Source: Erysipelothrix sp.
GTDB taxonomy: Bacteria; Bacillota_I; Bacilli_A; Erysipelotrichales; Erysipelotrichaceae
DNA: 37,758 bases
Assembly (NCBI GenBank): GCA_012512805.1
Contig: JAAZDN010000033.1
Coordinates: 1 to 37,758 of the forward strand
Direction: 5' to 3'
The notes beneath the pieces were generated by a model. It saw nothing but the letters and a program-made list of their open reading frames with translations, was not told where the DNA came from and did not search any database. Both the position numbers and the translations under genes were made by a program. The first letter of the stretch is position 1. Each line of letters begins with the position of its first letter. Positions 796-29,034 of the stretch are shown here, in pieces.

Positions 796-1737
796 ATGAA
801 TAAAAAAGTACGTGCAATAACAGAAGGAGCATTTATGAGTGCCTTAGTAGGACTCTTAATTGTCTTAGATGGTCAAAGTGGCTTACTCATTGATGGCTTA
901 CTTTTTTGGATTATTCCAATCCCTGTCATCATATATTCAATAAGACATTCATTAAGTGCAGGATTAATGGTCAGTACGGCTACAACCATCATGGCTTTTA
1001 TATTAACCCTACCACATATTGCCTTACTCATTGGATTCTCAAATATAATAGGATTAGCCTATGCATTTTCAGTTAAAAAAGAGTATCCTCAAGCGATCGT
1101 CTTTAGTCTTACCTTTGGTGCAACCGCAATTTATTATATATTATCAATGGTAATCTTTGCGGGCTTCTTCGGATACGATGCCTTAGCAGAGATTAGTGAG
1201 ATAACGAAGATGGTGACATCCATCGTTCATGGTTTAATAAATGAGGACGTAAATGTTGTAAAGATATTATATTTGTATAATCCCTTTTTTAAAATGTTAA
1301 CGATGTTTCCTTTATTTTTACCACTGACGATTGCACTGCTTCAAACTTTTATAACGCTGATGGTCAGTAAAATTATACTAACACGACTTAAATTAATGGA
1401 ATTTGCTCCAGTGAGTATCTTTAAATTTAAACTAAATAGTTGGATTGGATATCCACTCATGCTTTTTGTGATCGTGACAATTATCATAGAGTTTTCAACT
1501 AATTTTCACTTTGATAGTGTTATAATGTTAGTACAATTCATTGGACAATTGTTATTTATTTATATTGGAATATTATGTAGCTTAACAATTGTAATTGTGA
1601 AACGTGTTCCGCTTTTCTCAATTGTTGTTGCCCTTTTAACATTGAGTTTTCCGTATGTAACAATGGTCATTGGAATGCTGGACTTTGTATTTAATATTCG
1701 TGTATTAATAGTTAGGAAGGTTTTGAATGAAAGATAA
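796..1737 (+). CDS. DUF2232/YybS-like multi-pass membrane protein
   Basis: Hydrophobic 313 aa protein with MxxKVRAITEGAFMSALVGLL start; position directly upstream of gdpP. Confidence 0.75.
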   Translation: MNKKVRAITEGAFMSALVGLLIVLDGQSGLLIDGLLFWIIPIPVIIYSIRHSLSAGLMVSTATTIMAFILTLPHIALLIGFSNIIGLAYAFSVKKEYPQAIVFSLTFGATAIYYILSMVIFAGFFGYDALAEISEITKMVTSIVHGLINEDVNVVKILYLYNPFFKMLTMFPLFLPLTIALLQTFITLMVSKIILTRLKLMEFAPVSIFKFKLNSWIGYPLMLFVIVTIIIEFSTNFHFDSVIMLVQFIGQLLFIYIGILCSLTIVIVKRVPLFSIVVALLTLSFPYVTMVIGMLDFVFNIRVLIVRKVLNER

Positions 1738-3715
1738 AATTGAACAATTAAAATTTAGTGCAGTTATTGGAATTTTAATCCAAGTTGTCGTTTTCACCTT
1801 ATTTATCTTTTGGAATGGGATCACACAATCAACCTTTGTGATGATTTTCTTACTCGTATTTGAAACTGCTATCCTCTTCTATATCATATCTACCTATGAG
1901 CGTGATTTAAATAAACAGATTGTTAATCTTAAAGAAATCGTCGGAACTGAAACATATGATGCCTTCTTATTTGGAAATATTGGCTTAGTTGTCTATGATG
2001 AAGACTATAAGGTTATTTGGATGAGTGATTATTTTAAAAGTGTTAAAGTGAATGCTAAAGACATGAAAGTAACAGAATGGTTACCTGAAATTATCCCTTT
2101 ATTTAACGGTGATGTGGACGTTATTGATGTTGAATATGAAGACTTTGTCTTCAATGTTGTACGAAATTCAGAGGCACGATTACTCTACTTTAAAGACATT
2201 ACAACAGAGTATCGCGTGATTGAAAAATATACAAATGATGCACCAGTAATGGGACTTATCCACTTGGACAACTATTTAGAATATACACAGTACGAAGAAG
2301 AATCTCGCGTGTATTTTGTTGATAGTATTGTAAAACAAAACTTACTCAACTGGGCAAGTGAAAATGATATCTTTATTCGACGATTACGAAACGATCGATA
2401 CTTGGTCCTGTTGAATCATGAAGTGTTTGAAGAGATAAGTAAAACCAATTTTTCAATCATGCACAAGATTCGACGTGAGGCTCAAAACAATGATCTAGCA
2501 CTTTCACTCTCAATGGGATTTGCGCTTGGAACCTCAGAGTTTACAGCACTAGAAGAGTTATCCAATGACCTTTTAGAACTTGCTCAAAGCCGTGGTGGAG
2601 ACCAGGTAGCAGTGCGTGTTATGAACGAAGAAATAAGATACTATGGTGGAAACACTCAATCACGAGAACGCCGAAGTAAGGCTCGTGTTCGTGCTATATC
2701 CCAATCCGTTCGAGAACTTGTAGATGCGAGTGATAAGGTCATACTCGTCTTCCATAAAAATATGGACTTTGACTGTCTTGGATCAGGCCTTATATTAAGT
2801 AAGATGATTAAAGACCAGAAGAAAGATGTCTATTTGGTCACTGAGAGTGGTGGCATTGAATCTAAGCTCTTATCATCATTAAAAGTAAATGGGAGCATTC
2901 TAGAAAAAGATCATAAATTTATAGATGAAAAAGAAGCACTCAATCTATTAACGTATAACACCTTAGTCGTCTTATTGGATCATCATAATGATACTGTATC
3001 AAATGGTGCTGATGTTATAGAACAAGCAAATAAAGTAGTCATTATTGATCATCACCGTCGTACTACTGATTATAATTTCCAACCCGTATTAGCATATATT
3101 GAATCATCAGCATCAAGTACCACTGAAATGGTCACTGAAATGTTACAATATCAAGAGAAGCGTGTTGCGATAACACCACTTGAAGCGACCTATGCCTATA
3201 CAGGTCTTATCGTTGATACGAATGGATTTATTAATCGTGTGGGTAGTCGAACCTTTGAGGCAGCATCAATTCTTCAAAAATTTGGAGCTGATGTCCGCTA
3301 TGCTAATGAGCTATTAGATGATAGTTTTGATGACATTCAAAAGAAAAATAAGATCTTTGAAAATGTCGTTAGAAAAGTGGATGAAGGTGTAATGTACGCA
3401 CCCGTCTTTGATGGAACGATTATTCCACGAGGATTAATATCAAGTGCTGCAGATGAGTTATTAAGTGTACAAGATATTAAGGCGGTCTTTGTTGTATCCG
3501 CTATATCGAATGATCGTGTTGGAATCTCTGCCCGTTCACGTGGCGAATTTAACGTTCAAAAAATAATGGAAAAACTTGGAGGAGGCGGTCACTTTAATGC
3601 CGCAGCTGTCCAAAAAGAAAATATGAGTATCGAAGCGCTTGTGGCGCAATTAGAAACAGTCGTAGAAGCGTACTTAGAGGAGGTATACAACGATGAAAGT
3701 AATATTGTTGGATGA
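1727..3715 (+). CDS. gdpP: GdpP-type cyclic-di-AMP phosphodiesterase (TM + PAS + degenerate GGDEF + DHH/DHHA1)
   Basis: N-terminal TM helices; DHH motifs VFHKNMDFDCLGSG, LLDHHND and IIDHHRR; C-terminal GGGGHFNAAA. Confidence 0.95.
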   Translation: MKDKIEQLKFSAVIGILIQVVVFTLFIFWNGITQSTFVMIFLLVFETAILFYIISTYERDLNKQIVNLKEIVGTETYDAFLFGNIGLVVYDEDYKVIWMSDYFKSVKVNAKDMKVTEWLPEIIPLFNGDVDVIDVEYEDFVFNVVRNSEARLLYFKDITTEYRVIEKYTNDAPVMGLIHLDNYLEYTQYEEESRVYFVDSIVKQNLLNWASENDIFIRRLRNDRYLVLLNHEVFEEISKTNFSIMHKIRREAQNNDLALSLSMGFALGTSEFTALEELSNDLLELAQSRGGDQVAVRVMNEEIRYYGGNTQSRERRSKARVRAISQSVRELVDASDKVILVFHKNMDFDCLGSGLILSKMIKDQKKDVYLVTESGGIESKLLSSLKVNGSILEKDHKFIDEKEALNLLTYNTLVVLLDHHNDTVSNGADVIEQANKVVIIDHHRRTTDYNFQPVLAYIESSASSTTEMVTEMLQYQEKRVAITPLEATYAYTGLIVDTNGFINRVGSRTFEAASILQKFGADVRYANELLDDSFDDIQKKNKIFENVVRKVDEGVMYAPVFDGTIIPRGLISSAADELLSVQDIKAVFVVSAISNDRVGISARSRGEFNVQKIMEKLGGGGHFNAAAVQKENMSIEALVAQLETVVEAYLEEVYNDESNIVG

Positions 3716-4142
3716 TGTAAAAAAAGTAGGTAAAAAAGGTGAAGTTGTCGAAGTAGCAACTGGATATGGACGTAACTTCTTAATTCGTAATAACTTAGCA
3801 GTCATTGCATCAAGTGGAAGTATGGACGTCTTAAAAGGACAGAAACAAGAAGAAGCAGATCATCAAGAGTCCTTAAAGCAACAAGCACTTGTTGATAAAG
3901 AAAAAATAGAAAAAATATCACTTGACTTCTTTTTAAGTGTTGGGAAAGAAGGAAAATTATTTGGTTCCGTCTCTTCTAAACAAGTAGCAAGTGAATTAAA
4001 TACACGATTCAAAATTAAGGTTGATCGTCGTAAGTTCTTAGACAATGGACCATACAATCATTTAGGCATTAACAATGTTGACGTTGAACTGTATAAAGGT
4101 GTCATTGCAACAATTAAAGTTCATATAAAGGAAAAGAAGTAA
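3693..4142 (+). CDS. rplI: 50S ribosomal protein L9
   Basis: MKVILLDDVKKVGKKGEVVEVATGYGRNFLI. Confidence 0.98.
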   Translation: MKVILLDDVKKVGKKGEVVEVATGYGRNFLIRNNLAVIASSGSMDVLKGQKQEEADHQESLKQQALVDKEKIEKISLDFFLSVGKEGKLFGSVSSKQVASELNTRFKIKVDRRKFLDNGPYNHLGINNVDVELYKGVIATIKVHIKEKK

Positions 4143-4143
4143 A

Positions 4144-5484
4144 ATGGCACGCACACTACCGAGTAGTGTCGATGCTGAACAAGCAATCTTAGGCGCAATG
4201 CTAATGTATCCGAACGCTGTTCAAGCAGCCGTCGAATATGGTTTATTAGCAGAGCACTTCTTTTTACTATCGCATCAACAACTTGCTCAAACAATGTTTG
4301 ATATCTTTGAAGAGAATAGTCCTGTTGATCCTACGATCTTAAAAACACGCTTAGAAGACTTAAACATTCTAAATAGTGTCGGTGGACTTGACTATATCTT
4401 AGCACTCACAGACAGTGCAACAACGTCCGCAACCTTAAAACACTATGTTGAGATTATTATAAATAAGCATACCCTACGCCGATTAATGGAGGCAATGGGA
4501 ACCTTAAGTGATGAGGCCGCAACAAATCCAAGTGATATTGAAGGAATTATGGATAGTGCTGAACGTGCAATCTATAACATTACACGATCACGCCGTAGTG
4601 AAGACTTTAGAACGTCTAAAGAAGTCGTTGAAGCCGTACTTGAAAGTATTAAATTAAAAAGTGAATCTGGAACGAATATTACCGGAATGAAAACAGGCTA
4701 TGGAGATCTTGATAACATTACCTCAGGGTTTCAACGCGGTGATTTAATTATCCTCGCTGCCAGACCTTCAGTGGGTAAGACAGCCTTTGCTTTAAATGTA
4801 GGTGTAAACATGGCACTGTACAATGATTTACCAACCGCAATCTTTTCTTTAGAAATGCCTGCCGAACAATTAATGTCTCGTATTCTTACCTTTGAAAGTG
4901 AAATTAAAGGAACGAAATTACGTGATGGTACATTAAGAAGTGATACAGAATGGAATAAATTATATGAGGCCGCAAACCGCGTTAAGGAAGCAAAGATCTT
5001 TATCGATGATAGTCCGTCCTTAAGAATTTCAGACATTTTTTCAAAATGTCGTAAACTAAAAGCTGAACATGATTTAGGCGTCATCATTATTGACTACTTA
5101 CAGCTTATGGAATCAAATAAAAATGCAGAAAGTCGACAACAAGCCGTATCTGAAATTTCACGTGCCTTTAAAGGGTTAGCACGTGAACTGGACGTACCTG
5201 TTATCGCTTTATCACAATTATCACGGTCAGTTGAAACTCGTGCGGATAAACGCCCGATGTTATCTGACTTACGCGAATCAGGGGCAATTGAACAGGATGC
5301 CGATATCGTCATGTTCTTGTATAGGGAAGACTATCACAGTCTGGAAGAAGAAGCTGATCGCCAAGATACTGATGTCATTATTGCGAAACACCGTAACGGA
5401 TCACTCGCAGACGTCAAACTCGTCTTTGACAAAACGATTAATAAGTTCTTCTCCCGTGTCAATCACCCAGGAGTGAATTTTTAA
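4144..5484 (+). CDS. dnaB: Replicative DNA helicase
   Basis: Walker A AARPSVGKTAFALN; IIDYLQLM; SQLSRSVETRADKRPMLSDLRESGAIEQDAD. Confidence 0.98.
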   Translation: MARTLPSSVDAEQAILGAMLMYPNAVQAAVEYGLLAEHFFLLSHQQLAQTMFDIFEENSPVDPTILKTRLEDLNILNSVGGLDYILALTDSATTSATLKHYVEIIINKHTLRRLMEAMGTLSDEAATNPSDIEGIMDSAERAIYNITRSRRSEDFRTSKEVVEAVLESIKLKSESGTNITGMKTGYGDLDNITSGFQRGDLIILAARPSVGKTAFALNVGVNMALYNDLPTAIFSLEMPAEQLMSRILTFESEIKGTKLRDGTLRSDTEWNKLYEAANRVKEAKIFIDDSPSLRISDIFSKCRKLKAEHDLGVIIIDYLQLMESNKNAESRQQAVSEISRAFKGLARELDVPVIALSQLSRSVETRADKRPMLSDLRESGAIEQDADIVMFLYREDYHSLEEEADRQDTDVIIAKHRNGSLADVKLVFDKTINKFFSRVNHPGVNF

Positions 5485-6995
5485 TGAATAAAAACAAAAC
5501 AATACTTGTCCTATCGATCATTACACTAGTTAGTGCAATGTTCTCATTTGTGCCAGAAATTATTAATGCGAAAAGTGAAGTAAGTTTATTAAACAGTAAC
5601 TTACTACAGGCAACGAATCAATCAAAGATAGAACAAAAAATATTAAATGAAACAAAATTACCCGTCTCACAACGTGTTCTTTATGCGAATAATGAAGTCA
5701 TTGGTGTCGTCAGTGATTTAAGTCGTATTGAAGAAGTCATTGCTACGATAGGAATTGAAGAATACTCACAAGATTTTCCTGATTCACAGCTTGTGCTTGG
5801 AGATGATGTTTTTATTGCGGAAGAAATGTTGAATTTTCAATATGAAAATATTGATGATCAAATTATTGAATACATTGTCGACAATGATCTTTTAGCAATC
5901 GAAACAAATAAGGTAACCTTTAGTAATGGAGCAGTAATCTATGTAAAGAATGCCGTCGATTTTGATGAAGCAAAAGATGAGTATCTTTTAAACTTCATTG
6001 CAGAAGATGATATGAAATACATTAAAAACAATGAAGCTGTACCTTATGATCCGAATGCCTACTCCACAACGCCACTTAGTTTAGAAATTGTTGAAAAGAC
6101 AAATCTAACAAAGGGATATGCATCAAAGGAAAATATCTTAAAAGATAAGCGTGAAATTATCGAGTTTTTATCCTATGGATACAGTACAGATAAACAGTTT
6201 TATACAATTGAAGCCTTTGATACAGTGGATGGAATTGCCTATCAAGCAGGAATTTCACCACAACAATTACTTACCATTAATCCAAATATTAAATCACGTG
6301 AACAATTATTAAAAGAAGGTGATGAGATTAATGTAACCTTCTTTGACTCGCCAATTAACGTTATCGTTAAAAAACGTGCTGTGAAGCAAGAAGTTGTGTA
6401 TCCAGCATCAACCTTATACGTCAACGATCCAACCTTACGTGAAGGAAGTACGTATATTAAAACACAGGAAGAAACAGGAAGTAAACGGGTTGTCTATGAA
6501 GAAACATATGTCAATGGTGCGCTTAAAGATGGCTCAACAATATTAGATAGTGAAATTCTAAAAGAGCCCGTCCGTGAAGTTATTTATAAGGGAACAATGA
6601 TTGTTCCAAGTATTGGTTCAGGTCGCTTTAGATATCCAGTTGATAATCCAAGCTTAACGTGTGGATGGTACTGTTATGCGGGTCATACTGCGAATGACTA
6701 TCAGAATCGATACAACCGCTACGGTAGTGTTAGAGCCTCTGACCGTGGAACTGTTCAAGTTGCTTCGTACCATAGTATTAATGGATATTACGTATGGATT
6801 AACCACAATAACGGATACAGAACATATTATGGACACTTTAATGGTCCTGCCTATGTACGTCCCGGACAAGTAGTCGAACGTGGAGAAGTTATTGGTCAAA
6901 TTGGAATGACAGGTGTAGCCACAGGACCCCATGTTCACTTTATGATTCAATACAATGGACAATATATTAATCCTTCAGTATTGGTAGGTTATTAA
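5484..6995 (+). CDS. Secreted M23 metallopeptidase with LysM and G5-like domains
   Basis: Signal peptide; LysM-like FYTIEAFDTVDGIAYQAGISPQQLLTINPNI; G5-like REGSTYIKTQEETGSKRVVYEETYVNG; M23 motifs HTAND, YGHF and HVHF. Confidence 0.9.
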   Translation: MNKNKTILVLSIITLVSAMFSFVPEIINAKSEVSLLNSNLLQATNQSKIEQKILNETKLPVSQRVLYANNEVIGVVSDLSRIEEVIATIGIEEYSQDFPDSQLVLGDDVFIAEEMLNFQYENIDDQIIEYIVDNDLLAIETNKVTFSNGAVIYVKNAVDFDEAKDEYLLNFIAEDDMKYIKNNEAVPYDPNAYSTTPLSLEIVEKTNLTKGYASKENILKDKREIIEFLSYGYSTDKQFYTIEAFDTVDGIAYQAGISPQQLLTINPNIKSREQLLKEGDEINVTFFDSPINVIVKKRAVKQEVVYPASTLYVNDPTLREGSTYIKTQEETGSKRVVYEETYVNGALKDGSTILDSEILKEPVREVIYKGTMIVPSIGSGRFRYPVDNPSLTCGWYCYAGHTANDYQNRYNRYGSVRASDRGTVQVASYHSINGYYVWINHNNGYRTYYGHFNGPAYVRPGQVVERGEVIGQIGMTGVATGPHVHFMIQYNGQYINPSVLVGY

Positions 6996-14622: not shown

Positions 14623-14678
14623 GATAATACTACTGGAAAATATTTTTTAATTATCATTACAATAAAATAATAATATGC

Positions 14679-14684
14679 TATAAT
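14679..14684 (+). promoter_or_regulatory. -10 box of the P-type ATPase promoter
   Basis: TATAAT, with a weak -35 (TTACAA) about 16 bp upstream. Confidence 0.7.
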
Positions 14685-14686
14685 AC

Positions 14687-14706
14687 ATATGAACAAACAC
14701 TCATAT
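14687..14706 (+). promoter_or_regulatory. Palindromic repressor operator (ArsR/SmtB-CzrA-like consensus)
   Basis: ATATGAACAAACACTCATAT between the -10 and the RBS; near-identical copy at 28905..28924. Confidence 0.75.
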
Positions 14707-14722: not shown

Positions 14723-16798
14723 ATGAAAACTGTGAAATATAAAATCAGTGGACTTGACTGTGCATCATGTGCAGCTAAAATTGAAGAATCCAGTTGTAAA
14801 CTTGAAGGTGTCAATAATGTAACGATTGACTTAATGAATCATAATGTATGGCTCCAAGCAGATGAAAACTCAGATGATAAGCACATCTTTGATGAATTTA
14901 ATAAGATTGCAGATCGTATTGAACCTGGTGCAAAACTTGTTAGTGAAGAGATTGAAAGTGAAGAGACTGAGCATTCAAATATCTTAATGCGAATTATCAT
15001 TTCAATAGTATTTATTGCGATTGGTTTTATGAGCAACAATGATAGTATTAGTCTAACATCATTCTTAATATCATATTTTGTAGTGGGATACGATGTAATA
15101 ATATTAGCCTTTAAAAACTTAATTCGTGGACGTGCTCTGGATGAAAACTTTTTAATGAGTTTAGCAACCGTTGGTGCCTTTCTTATTAATGAACATTTTG
15201 AAGCCGTCTTAGTCATGCTACTGTACCAAATTGGAGAGTACCTTCAACATGAAGCCGTACACCAATCCAAACAATCAATTACAAAATTGATGAACATTAA
15301 AGCAGAATATGCGATGAAACTCGTTGATCATAAAGAAGTGATGATTGATCCTGAAAATGTAATGTTAGATGATGTCTTAGTTGTACGTCCTGGTGAGAAA
15401 ATTCCAGTAGACGGTATGATTATTAGTGGACTTGGAGCAATTGATTATAAGGCTTTAACTGGAGAGTCATTACCTGTTGAAGTGAATGTTGATACTGAAG
15501 TATTAAGTGGTGGTATAAATGTTGATAGCGTCTTACACATTCGTGTTACAAAGACATATAATGACTCAACGATTAAACAAATCTTGGACCTTGTTGAAAA
15601 TGCAAGTGCAAATAAGGCACCTGCAGAGAAATTTATTACTCGCTTTGCGAAGTACTATACACCTATTGTTGTAATGCTTGCAGTCATAATTGCCTTTATA
15701 GTACCACTTATACTTGAAGGTAAATTGTATGATTATGATTACATGTATCGTGCTTTAACCTTCCTCGTTATCTCATGTCCATGTGCGCTTGTTATATCAG
15801 TTCCACTCAGCTTCTTTGGTGGTATTGGTGGAGCAAGTAAATTAGGAATCCTGTTTAAGGGAAGTAACTACATTGAAGCCTTAGCTAAGGCTGAAGTTGT
15901 CCTCTTTGATAAGACTGGAACACTTACTGAAGGAAGCTTTAATGTTGTTGAAGTCAAGAGTGAGTATGATGCTGAGCAAGTGATTGAATATGCGGCCATG
16001 GCTGAATACTATTCAAACCATCCGATTGCAAAATCGATTGTGAATCACTATGGAAAAGATATTGATTTTAGCAGCCTTGCACAAGGTCAAGAATTAGCAC
16101 ATCTTGGTGTTGGTGTCCTCTATAACAATAAACAAGTATGGGCAGGTAACTACAAGCTCATGCAAGAAAAAAATATTGATGTCAAAGAAGTTCAAACAAC
16201 AGAGTCCATTGTTTATGTCGCTGTGGACAATACTTTCTATGGGACAATCGTCATTGCTGATAAGATCAAAAAAGATGCAGCTGAAACAATAAGCAATCTA
16301 AAACAATTAGGTATTAAACAGATTGAAATGTTGACGGGAGATAATAAAACTATTGCCCAAAGTGTTTCAGAAACATTAGCACTTAGTAACTATCATGCCG
16401 GACTCACACCACTTGATAAGGTAGATATTGTTGAAGCTTATGAACAAAATGATGAACGTGTCATCTTTGTTGGAGATGGAATTAACGATGCACCGGTCTT
16501 AACGATGGCAAGTGTTGGAGTAGCTATGGGATCACTGGGTAGTGATGCAGCAATTGAAGCAGCAGACGTTGTCATAATGGATGATAATCCAATACGGCTT
16601 CCATATGCGATTAAACAAGCACGAAGAACAATGAATATTGTAAAACAAAACATTACCTTCGCCCTTGCAACGAAATTCTTATTTATGGCACTTGGTGCCT
16701 ATGGTATCAGTAATATGGCAATGGCCATCTTTGCGGATGTTGGAGTATCACTTTTAGCAATACTCAATGCTTTACGACTATTACGCGTTAAACAATAA
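14723..16798 (+). CDS. Heavy-metal P1B-type ATPase (Zn/Cd/Pb-type) with N-terminal HMA domain
   Basis: GLDCASCAAKIEES HMA motif; SCPCALVIS; DKTGTLTEG; GDGINDAPVL; RBS aaaggag supports ATG at 14723. Confidence 0.95.
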   Translation: MKTVKYKISGLDCASCAAKIEESSCKLEGVNNVTIDLMNHNVWLQADENSDDKHIFDEFNKIADRIEPGAKLVSEEIESEETEHSNILMRIIISIVFIAIGFMSNNDSISLTSFLISYFVVGYDVIILAFKNLIRGRALDENFLMSLATVGAFLINEHFEAVLVMLLYQIGEYLQHEAVHQSKQSITKLMNIKAEYAMKLVDHKEVMIDPENVMLDDVLVVRPGEKIPVDGMIISGLGAIDYKALTGESLPVEVNVDTEVLSGGINVDSVLHIRVTKTYNDSTIKQILDLVENASANKAPAEKFITRFAKYYTPIVVMLAVIIAFIVPLILEGKLYDYDYMYRALTFLVISCPCALVISVPLSFFGGIGGASKLGILFKGSNYIEALAKAEVVLFDKTGTLTEGSFNVVEVKSEYDAEQVIEYAAMAEYYSNHPIAKSIVNHYGKDIDFSSLAQGQELAHLGVGVLYNNKQVWAGNYKLMQEKNIDVKEVQTTESIVYVAVDNTFYGTIVIADKIKKDAAETISNLKQLGIKQIEMLTGDNKTIAQSVSETLALSNYHAGLTPLDKVDIVEAYEQNDERVIFVGDGINDAPVLTMASVGVAMGSLGSDAAIEAADVVIMDDNPIRLPYAIKQARRTMNIVKQNITFALATKFLFMALGAYGISNMAMAIFADVGVSLLAILNALRLLRVKQ

Positions 16799-26144: not shown

Positions 26145-27542
26145 TTATTTTACTGCGTTAAATTCGTCTTGGTTGAATGTACCGTCCCATTTGTCGATAA
26201 TGACAGCTGCGACCATTGCTCCAGCAACGTTTAACATTGTACGTCCCATATCTACGATTGGGTCGATTCCGAATACTGCACCGATGTTTGGAATAAGTTC
26301 TCCAAGTCCAATACCGTTTAACGTAACGGTTGCGGCTACTGTTGCTGTACCTGGAACTCCGGCAATACCGATTGATCCGATAGTAACAACTAATACTAAC
26401 ATTACATAGAATACGAAGTTAATTTCAATACCTGCTGATGCAGCAACTAAGATACCAAGCATTGCTGGGAATAAACCAGCACATCCATTCATACCGATTG
26501 AAGTTCCAAGTGTCGCAACGAAGTTTGCTGTTGATCCTGAAACACCCATGTCGTTTTCTAATGTTTGTAAAGTATATGGTAATGTACCAACACTTGAACG
26601 TGATGAGAAGGCAAAGACGAGTGTCGTAAATGCTTTTTTGAAGAAGACAACTGGGCTAATTCCAGTTAATGTTAGAAGGACAACATAGAAGAGTAACATA
26701 ATGATTACACCAACGTATAGTGCGATGATGAATCCACCCATTCCGATAATTGCTGCAACACCGCGTGAAATGATTGTGTTTGCGACAAGTCCTAAAACTC
26801 CATAAGGCATAAATTTAATAACGTTAATTAACATTGAGTTAATGACTAAACGTGCTGAGTCTAATAAGTCAATAAATGGTTTAACTTGTTCTGGTTTTTT
26901 AACGCTTAAGAAACGTAGTGAAGCTGCGAATAATGCTCCAATAATAACTGTAGAAACAACTTGTCCATTTGATGAGAATGTTGACATCATGTTGTTAGGA
27001 ATAAATCCTAGGAAAAATTGTGGGAAACTTTGTGATGCAATTGTACCCATACGATCAATTTGTCCTGCTGATAATTCTCCAACAAGGTTAATACTTTCAA
27101 GGTTAAATAACTTAACGACAACGATACCAACGATTGCTGAAACGGCAGTTGTACCAAGTAATACGATGAATGTTTTTGACGTTAATGTTTTAATACGTTT
27201 TGCGTCAACATCAGTAATTACTTTAATGATTGATAAGAATACAACTGGAACTGCGAGTAATTGGACAAGTTTAATGAATCCTGATCCAAGTAGTGCGAAC
27301 CAATCTGAGATTTCTTTTTGTGCTCCGTTGGCGTAGAGTGCATTGTTTGCACCTACGACATCAAGTAGAATACCAAGTGCTAGTCCTAAAACTAAACCAA
27401 TTAACATTCTATTTGAGAAACTTACTTTCTTTTTACCTAAGCTTCTTAGGAAAAAGATACTTGCGCCAAGTAATAATAATGCCACTAAAGTGTATACATT
27501 ACTTAAGCGTAGAAATTGCGTAAAAAATGGTGAATTAATCAT
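26145..27542 (-). CDS. Dicarboxylate/amino acid:cation symporter family, TcyP-like (probable cystine importer)
   Basis: KKKVSFSNRMLIGLVLGLALGILLD; GSGFIKLVQLLAVPVVFLSIIK; FSSRSSVGTLPYTLQTLENDMGVSGSTANFVATLGTSIGMNGCAG. Confidence 0.85.
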   Translation of the reverse strand: MINSPFFTQFLRLSNVYTLVALLLLGASIFFLRSLGKKKVSFSNRMLIGLVLGLALGILLDVVGANNALYANGAQKEISDWFALLGSGFIKLVQLLAVPVVFLSIIKVITDVDAKRIKTLTSKTFIVLLGTTAVSAIVGIVVVKLFNLESINLVGELSAGQIDRMGTIASQSFPQFFLGFIPNNMMSTFSSNGQVVSTVIIGALFAASLRFLSVKKPEQVKPFIDLLDSARLVINSMLINVIKFMPYGVLGLVANTIISRGVAAIIGMGGFIIALYVGVIIMLLFYVVLLTLTGISPVVFFKKAFTTLVFAFSSRSSVGTLPYTLQTLENDMGVSGSTANFVATLGTSIGMNGCAGLFPAMLGILVAASAGIEINFVFYVMLVLVVTIGSIGIAGVPGTATVAATVTLNGIGLGELIPNIGAVFGIDPIVDMGRTMLNVAGAMVAAVIIDKWDGTFNQDEFNAVK

Positions 27543-27555
27543 AATTCTATTCCTC

Positions 27556-28890
27556 CTATTTCGCAGTATTCGCTGCGACGTTTAATGCTTCCCATGTTGA
27601 GGCAAATGGTGGTGCGTAACCAAAGTCCATAAAGCCTAAATCTTTTGTGCTCAGCCCAGCATAAATGGCTGTTGTTAAAGCCTGAATTCTTAATACAGCT
27701 TCACTCTCACCTGCTACTTGTGCTCCAAGTAGGACGAAGTCTTTTGCGTTATATATAAGTTTAATCATCACAGGTTGTTGATTTGGATAATAGTTTGAAT
27801 GGTTGTTCGCATTTACAAGTGTTGTTTTAATATCCAAGTTTAAGGCCTTAGCCTGAGCTTCAGTGAGTCCAGTACTTGCGGCTTCATAATGACCTGCTTT
27901 TAAATAACTTGTTCCGAGTGCTCCATTAAACTTAATCCAATCATCCTTATCTCTAACGATGTTACTTCCAATAATACGTCCCATTTTATTTGCATACGTT
28001 GCAAGTGGGATATACTGAATGCCTGAAAGTCGATGATTTACAGTTGCGCAGTCGCCTGCTGCAAAGACATCTTTCTTGGATGTTTGACCATAGTCATCTG
28101 TGATGATTGCACCATTGGATAACATATCTAACTTCCAGTCTAAGAATGCTGTATTGGGTTTAAAACCAATTGCTAAAATCACAACATCAACATCATAGCT
28201 ATTGTGTTCGGTAATAACCTGTGTCACTTCTCCATCCTTAACAGTGAAGTTCACAGCGCGTTCATTCAATACAACATTGATGTTCTCAGCTTTTAAGGAT
28301 TGTTCAATCTTCTCTGAGAATTCTGGATCGAAAACAGCATTCATCAGATGTGATCGAGAATGGATTAGTGTAATGTCTTTATTGAAAGGTGCTAACTGCT
28401 CCGCAACTTCAACACCAATGAAGCCACCACCAATAATAGCGATACGCTTAGTCTTGTCGAGATTGCTTTTTAAGCGATCAACGCTCTCAAGAGTTGTAAA
28501 GGTAAATACATTCTTACTGGTTACACCTTCAATGTTTGGAATTGTAGGTGTAGCTCCTGTCGCAATCATAAGCCGATCGTAAGTGAGATCACCTTGAGCA
28601 TCTGTCTCTAAATCGATGTATGTTACGGTCTTATTATCAAAGTCAACATTCGTAACTTCCGTTCTTAATAAGAGGTTGATACCTGATTTTTCGATTTGTT
28701 CAGGTGTACGTGCAAACATTTCCTGTGCATCACTAAATTGCTCACCTAAGTAATAAGGTAGACCACAGGCTCCAAATGAGATGTAATCTGCTTTTTCAAT
28801 AACGGTAATATTGGCATTTGGATTTTCACGTTTTGCTTTCGCTGCTACTGACATCCCTGCCGCAATTCCCCCAATTACAATAATTTCCAT
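27556..28890 (-). CDS. cdr: CoA-disulfide reductase (FAD/NAD(P)H pyridine nucleotide-disulfide oxidoreductase)
   Basis: IVIGGIAAGMSVAAKAKRENP; SFGACGLPYYLGEQ active-site Cys; IIGGGFIGVEVAEQL; no C-terminal rhodanese. Confidence 0.85.
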   Translation of the reverse strand: MEIIVIGGIAAGMSVAAKAKRENPNANITVIEKADYISFGACGLPYYLGEQFSDAQEMFARTPEQIEKSGINLLLRTEVTNVDFDNKTVTYIDLETDAQGDLTYDRLMIATGATPTIPNIEGVTSKNVFTFTTLESVDRLKSNLDKTKRIAIIGGGFIGVEVAEQLAPFNKDITLIHSRSHLMNAVFDPEFSEKIEQSLKAENINVVLNERAVNFTVKDGEVTQVITEHNSYDVDVVILAIGFKPNTAFLDWKLDMLSNGAIITDDYGQTSKKDVFAAGDCATVNHRLSGIQYIPLATYANKMGRIIGSNIVRDKDDWIKFNGALGTSYLKAGHYEAASTGLTEAQAKALNLDIKTTLVNANNHSNYYPNQQPVMIKLIYNAKDFVLLGAQVAGESEAVLRIQALTTAIYAGLSTKDLGFMDFGYAPPFASTWEALNVAANTAK

Positions 28891-28904
28891 AATTTCCTCC
28901 TAAT

Positions 28905-28924
28905 ATATGAACAAGCGCTCATAT
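28905..28924 (-). promoter_or_regulatory. Palindromic repressor operator matching the site at 14687..14706
   Basis: ATATGAACAAGCGCTCATAT within the larger palindrome ATATATGA-N8-TCATATAT (28903..28926), immediately upstream of the aggagg RBS. Confidence 0.75.
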
Positions 28925-29034
28925 ATCCTTATCTATTAAACCATAAAAATACAAACTAATAAAGTAATATTCACTTTTCTCGCATAATTTTCACCTTACA
29001 CCATTCAACAATAAGGTTCCTCATAACTATTATA

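Follow-up and report, generated by a model that had tools for sequence, protein, structure and literature searches.

As a rule, the export of zinc and cadmium is regulated separately from thiol metabolism, although thiols are a main buffer of intracellular metal. In Bacillus and Staphylococcus, one repressor, CzrA, acts in trans on several metal-efflux transcripts; we know of no cystine importer and no CoA-disulfide reductase (CoADR) in the CzrA regulon. SmtB/ArsR regulators bind 12-2-12 repeats that lie near or over the start site (PMC8790569). In Anabaena 7120, a remote alpha5 SmtB-family repressor, AzuR/AztR, binds such a repeat before the metallothionein gene nmtA, and a similar repeat precedes the ATPase gene aztA (PMC8790569).

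The window analysed here, a stretch of 37,758 nucleotides, belongs to the MAG of an uncultured Erysipelothrix relative (G000; 1,167,801 bases in 122 contigs, 94.9% complete, 6.6% contamination). It carries two similar palindromes, one before a metal ATPase gene and the other before a CoADR-tcyP operon. Probably, both transcripts are controlled in trans by a Zn(II)-responsive repressor of the SmtB/CzrA type, the regulon of which has been extended in this genus to cystine import and disulfide reduction. The system resembles those of the SmtB/CzrA/ZiaR-type alpha5 zinc repressors in the sequence and ligands of the repressor, in the 12-2-12-like operator at the transcription start and in the P1B ATPase target, and it would share control in trans with the CzrA regulon of Bacillus and Staphylococcus. 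In contrast to the SmtB/CzrA/ZiaR systems, its arsR gene is detached and siteless, and its second target is a cystine-import/disulfide-reductase operon. AzuR of Anabaena may be taken as a precedent for the logic, and the circuit described here could, by analogy, be seen as a small-molecule counterpart of SmtB-metallothionein. It differs from AzuR/AztR in that the thiol arm consists of cystine import and a reductase rather than of a cysteine-rich protein, and the lineages are unrelated. The switch is of a known type, whereas the added cystine-operon target looks new. A literature search of partial coverage returned nothing joining ArsR, cystine and CoA-disulfide reductase, which is weak evidence of novelty.

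Operator sites and target genes

The features of the two loci are as follows.

Positions 14656-14684, plus strand: ATPase promoter, ATTACA-17-TATAAT with a TG before the -10, assigned by consensus match only
Positions 14687-14706, plus strand: putative operator 1, ATATGAACAAACACTCATAT, which overlaps the presumed start of transcription of the P1B-type metal ATPase gene
Positions 14723-16798, plus strand: heavy-metal ATPase of the P1B-type Zn/Cd/Pb class (TIGR01525 and TIGR01512 above cut-off)
Positions 26145-27542, minus strand: SDF-family symporter, TcyP-type, second gene of the CoADR operon
Positions 27556-28890, minus strand: CoADR-family flavoenzyme, first gene of the operon (NF007123)
Positions 28905-28924, minus strand: putative operator 2, ATATGAACAAGCGCTCATAT (the coding strand reads ATATGAGCGCTTGTTCATAT), located downstream of the CoADR operon's -10 and upstream of its RBS
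Positions 28935-28945, minus strand: TATGGTTTAAT, probable extended -10 of the CoADR operon, conserved in the sister species G182 according to the aligned upstream regions

The two sites are 20-bp imperfect palindromes that are identical at 18 of 20 positions. When the sequence was re-read, the positions, the two differences and the proximity of each site to an RBS were all as described in the original prediction. Operator 1 starts 2 nt past the extended -10 of the ATPase promoter and is separated at its end by 16 nt from the ATG (14723) of the ATPase gene, adjoining the RBS. Operator 2 lies about 10 nt downstream of TATGGTTTAAT and 14 nt upstream of the CoADR ATG (28890, minus strand), where it adjoins AGGAGG; promoter prediction gave no promoter above threshold on the strand of the CoADR operon. 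Both sites comprise half-sites of the type TGA(A/G)YR around a 2-bp centre, forming 12-2-12-like imperfect inverted repeats near the transcription start. Their geometry is TGAACA-N2-CRCTCA, with TGARYR-N2-YRYTCA as the general form.

With regard to the ATPase, an N-terminal HMA domain (CASC), a CPC motif and the K/DxG residues of TM7/TM8 can be read from the sequence. The flavoenzyme scores 536.7 bits with NF007123 (cut-off 458), TIGR03385 and NF010037 being below their cut-offs. Its active-site cysteine, Cys42 (SFGACGLPYY), is the single redox cysteine and is invariant, together with Tyr367 and Tyr425, in all four close homologues. The best structure match, aligned over the full length, is 3CGB, which we take to be the B. 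anthracis CoADR, and the homologues include the CoA-persulfide reductase 8a56. The enzyme shares with these CoA-disulfide/CoA-persulfide reductases the full-length family match, the single redox cysteine and the pair of tyrosines; unlike the longer CoADR-Rhd forms, it has no rhodanese domain. It is predicted to be a CoADR-family reductase, and its substrate may be CoA disulfide, cystine or a persulfide. The symporter is nearer to E. coli TcyP (34% identity, 213 bits) than to GltP (126) or DctA (102), which bears out its earlier labelling as a cystine symporter. The gene context of CoADR-tcyP suggests that the operon serves to import and reduce cystine.

Occurrence of the sites in the genome

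The pattern ATATGA-N8-TCATAT has exactly two matches in the whole genome, which are operators 1 and 2. The consensus of the family, ATATGARCNNNNGYTCATAT, yields 2 sites in this genome at no more than one mismatch, against 0 for the reversed control. A chance likeness of two AT-rich palindromes would be helped by base composition, as ATATGA-N8-TCATAT is expected about 0.4-0.9 times in an AT-rich genome of this size. However, an identity of 18/20 at a promoter has a p of about 1e-6 per gene. This value comes from a first-order Markov model and applies to the presence, in one particular upstream region of 60 bp, of a 20-mer with no more than two differences from the ATPase site; it corresponds to about 3e-5 for the 30 genes of the window and to about 1e-3 when every upstream region in the genome is counted. 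Moreover, G182 keeps the site at the same position, with both loci conserved, and we regard chance as an exceedingly improbable explanation.

When up to three mismatches were allowed, 20 sites were found in the whole genome against 22 in the control. With no more hits than the control, the loose scan gives no hint of further, undetected regulon members, and a larger regulon in this genome was rejected on these grounds. The three-mismatch scan of the original prediction, with 3 sites found for 0.82 expected, was only mildly unusual. The other sites with one or two mismatches that we inspected in this genome are within coding regions or before unrelated genes. It is the exact sites, and the fact that they are conserved, that carry the case, not the loose scan.

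Distribution of the operator in the family

Of the 276 genomes of the family, 134 contain ATATGARCNNNNGYTCATAT at no more than one mismatch, and 16 contain the reversed control (counted from the table). For 40 exact-match sites in other genomes of the family, the neighbouring genes were examined: 38 of these sites are located directly before a metal ATPase gene or an arsR-ATPase operon, and the remaining two are truncated by the end of the contig. In some cases, a small HMA protein is encoded ahead of the ATPase that follows an exact site. Among the one-mismatch sites, 7 of the 15 examined stand before a metal ATPase or arsR-ATPase. In two Erysipelothrix-like genomes of genus g25 (G145 and G157), arsR directly precedes the ATPase homologue, with the site at the arsR start, and these arsR homologues are 41-42% identical to the ArsR of the genome studied here. 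In G146, the site ATATGAACACACACTCATAT, 19/20 identical to operator 1, precedes a His-rich metal ATPase. The prevalence of metal ATPase and arsR-ATPase genes after the exact sites (38/40) indicates that the motif is the ArsR/SmtB metal operator of the family, an identity that is well supported at the level of sequence comparison.

Conservation in the sister species

G182 is a different species of the same genus, with a reductase 73%, an ATPase 68% and an ArsR 71% identical to those of G000. The conservation of the sites at both loci in relatives, which the original prediction had named as a check, was found in this species, and for the CoADR site it rests on this one other species. Some distant loci that had been read in the wrong orientation (L043, L044, L047, L050, L052 and L066) are left out of this comparison. 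The CoADR site of G182, ATATGAATGAACACTCATAT, is at -32; this palindrome was read from the sequence, the alignment having put a gap inside it. The ATPase site, ATATGTATAGTGGTTCATAT, lies directly before the RBS and is degenerate, with two mismatches to the family consensus. Around the sites, the intergenic DNA of G182 for the most part does not align convincingly with that of G000. A third member of the genus (66% complete) has no close homologues of the reductase, the ATPase or ArsR.

Candidate repressor

Contig C84, positions 5591-5938 (L008, positions 1396-1743): arsR, after miaA and a tcdA-like gene

This is the single ArsR gene that three profile models detected in the genome, and it lies outside the window. 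Its product scores 92.5 bits with the metalloregulator model NF033788 (cut-off 55) and 63 bits with PF01022 (cut-off 22). The nearest solved structure is SmtB (E=3e-21), followed by CzrA. When aligned with SmtB (1r1t) and CzrA (6cda), the alpha5 ligands D-x-H-x10-H-x2-E are intact, and they are conserved among the aligned ArsR homologues. The CadC-type alpha3N thiolate site is absent from this protein, as CVH replaces CxC and there is no N-terminal cysteine. The assignment of this ArsR to the SmtB/CzrA type is well supported by these protein features.

The original prediction had left two branches, a metal sensor and a thiol- or persulfide-sensing ArsR protein. In the second case, the regulator would be SqrR/BigR-like, with CoADR-tcyP as the main target and metal export as a passenger. 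Such a regulator would suit an operon that concerns sulfur chemistry and a reductase with the CoA-persulfide reductase 8a56 among its homologues, and the BigR model does match the protein, albeit weakly (47.6 bits, for a cut-off of 155). However, the only ArsR detected has one cysteine in the whole protein, whereas SqrR/BigR sensing needs two, its alpha5 metal site is intact and its nearest structures are those of SmtB and CzrA. In addition, the operator is found family-wide at metal ATPases and is missing from other CoADR genes. We therefore consider persulfide control very unlikely. The intact alpha5 site and the single cysteine favour the sensing of Zn(II) (or Co(II)) and disfavour that of persulfide, so that the metal branch is the one retained. 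Judging from the repressor protein, Zn(II) is the favoured metal.

A TetR-family repressor acting on both sites had also been raised. The genome does contain one TetR gene (C19:27164), and TetR operators are also inverted repeats. In contrast, both sites are retained in G182 (84% complete), where no TetR gene was detected, and across the family the motif accompanies arsR and metal ATPases. The TetR candidate was rejected because of its absence from the genes detected in G182, and its probability is close to negligible.

No operator was found before arsR in G000 or in G182, where the gene likewise follows a tcdA-like gene (L090, positions 1501-1842). Autoregulation of arsR was discarded for this reason, and in this genus the repressor appears to be detached from its targets and not autoregulated. 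As arsR lacks an operator of its own, its link to the two sites rests on the family-wide association and on its being the sole candidate. The G000 assembly might have missed a second ArsR gene, given its fragmentation (122 contigs) and contamination (6.6%); G182 has a second, weaker ArsR-like gene (C3), which is below the metalloregulator cut-off. The comparative evidence as a whole, namely the C84 ArsR, the family link and the sister species, favours the proposal that both genes are under the control of a single trans-acting repressor whose gene is not in the window.

Two further observations were made around arsR. The end of C84 and the start of C61 (L008, L099) share the 3' end of arsR, beyond which they differ and continue into fragments resembling sugar ABC transporters; this is probably due to strain mixture or misassembly in the MAG. 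In both species, another, conserved palindrome, GTTAGCAATGGCTAAC / GTTAGCAGCGGCTAAC, precedes a FecCD-like permease gene (L099, about 1018-1035; L090, about 2006-2023) and may serve a different metal repressor as its operator.

The CoADR-tcyP pair in other lineages

Enterococcus, Vagococcus and Erysipelothrix-like MAGs have CoADR and tcyP in the order seen here, Clostridia in the reverse one. In Vagococcus, a RidA-family protein and a cystathionine-lyase-type enzyme border the pair. Scanning the GTDB species genomes with a pattern seed gave 53 other CoADR homologues, often in the same gene pair, and none of these has a site with up to two mismatches within 400 bp upstream, or within the shorter upstream stretch available. 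Among the homologues examined, the CoADR operator appears limited to this genus, and its gain at CoADR in this genus would be the simplest history.

The role of the CoADR site deserves separate consideration. Both sites could be bound while the CoADR site does not serve thiol buffering: it might be for Fe-S repair or for electron disposal (zinc-induced cystine use), or it might be nearly neutral. This would agree with the CoADR-TcyP module elsewhere, which resembles general cystine use (RidA, Cys/Met lyase-type enzyme) and not metal stress. Neutrality, however, is argued against by the retention of the site in two species despite the divergence of the intergenic DNA around it. On balance, we regard such another purpose as rather unlikely.

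At L122 (positions 1094-6461) and at similar loci of Enterococcus and Vagococcus, CoADR-tcyP occurs with RidA, the cystathionine-lyase-type enzyme and a YheO-like PAS/HTH regulator. This neighbourhood is likely a cystine-utilisation cluster, of which the YheO-like protein may be the own regulator. Ignatzschineria (Gammaproteobacteria; L131, L133 and L167) possesses CoADRs that are 54-57% identical, which suggests horizontal transfer with Firmicutes.

Proposed mechanism and significance

In the mechanism that we propose for the zinc-responsive repressor, dimeric ArsR would, without excess metal, occupy the 20-bp palindromes at the start or leader and block both the ATPase gene and CoADR-tcyP. 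Zn(II), or possibly Cd(II) or Co(II), would bind at the interfacial alpha5 site (Asp-His-His-Glu) and free the repressor, so that both transcripts are made. The ATPase would then export the metal, TcyP would bring in cystine and the CoADR-family enzyme would reduce disulfides. The resulting rise in cysteine and CoA thiols would buffer the metal and replace metal-bound thiols. The release of the repressor and the derepression are modelled on the established behaviour of SmtB/CzrA. We infer repressor binding, the identity of the metal, the direction of the response and the physiological purpose. Metal overload probably raises the supply of metal-binding thiols. Slightly short of an even chance, in our view, is the full picture of a two-arm detoxification under a zinc sensor, in which P1B export goes together with cystine import and disulfide reduction induced by zinc, the metal is buffered inside the cell by small thiols, and the second arm was acquired through one operator gained before a ready-made cystine module.

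If this is true, the cell itself would couple metal export with thiol supply through one zinc sensor. The genus gives a simple two-promoter system for testing the coupling between export and thiols. As the site is missing from this gene pair in other Firmicutes, the genus would also offer a clean case of regulon growth by the gain of one site.
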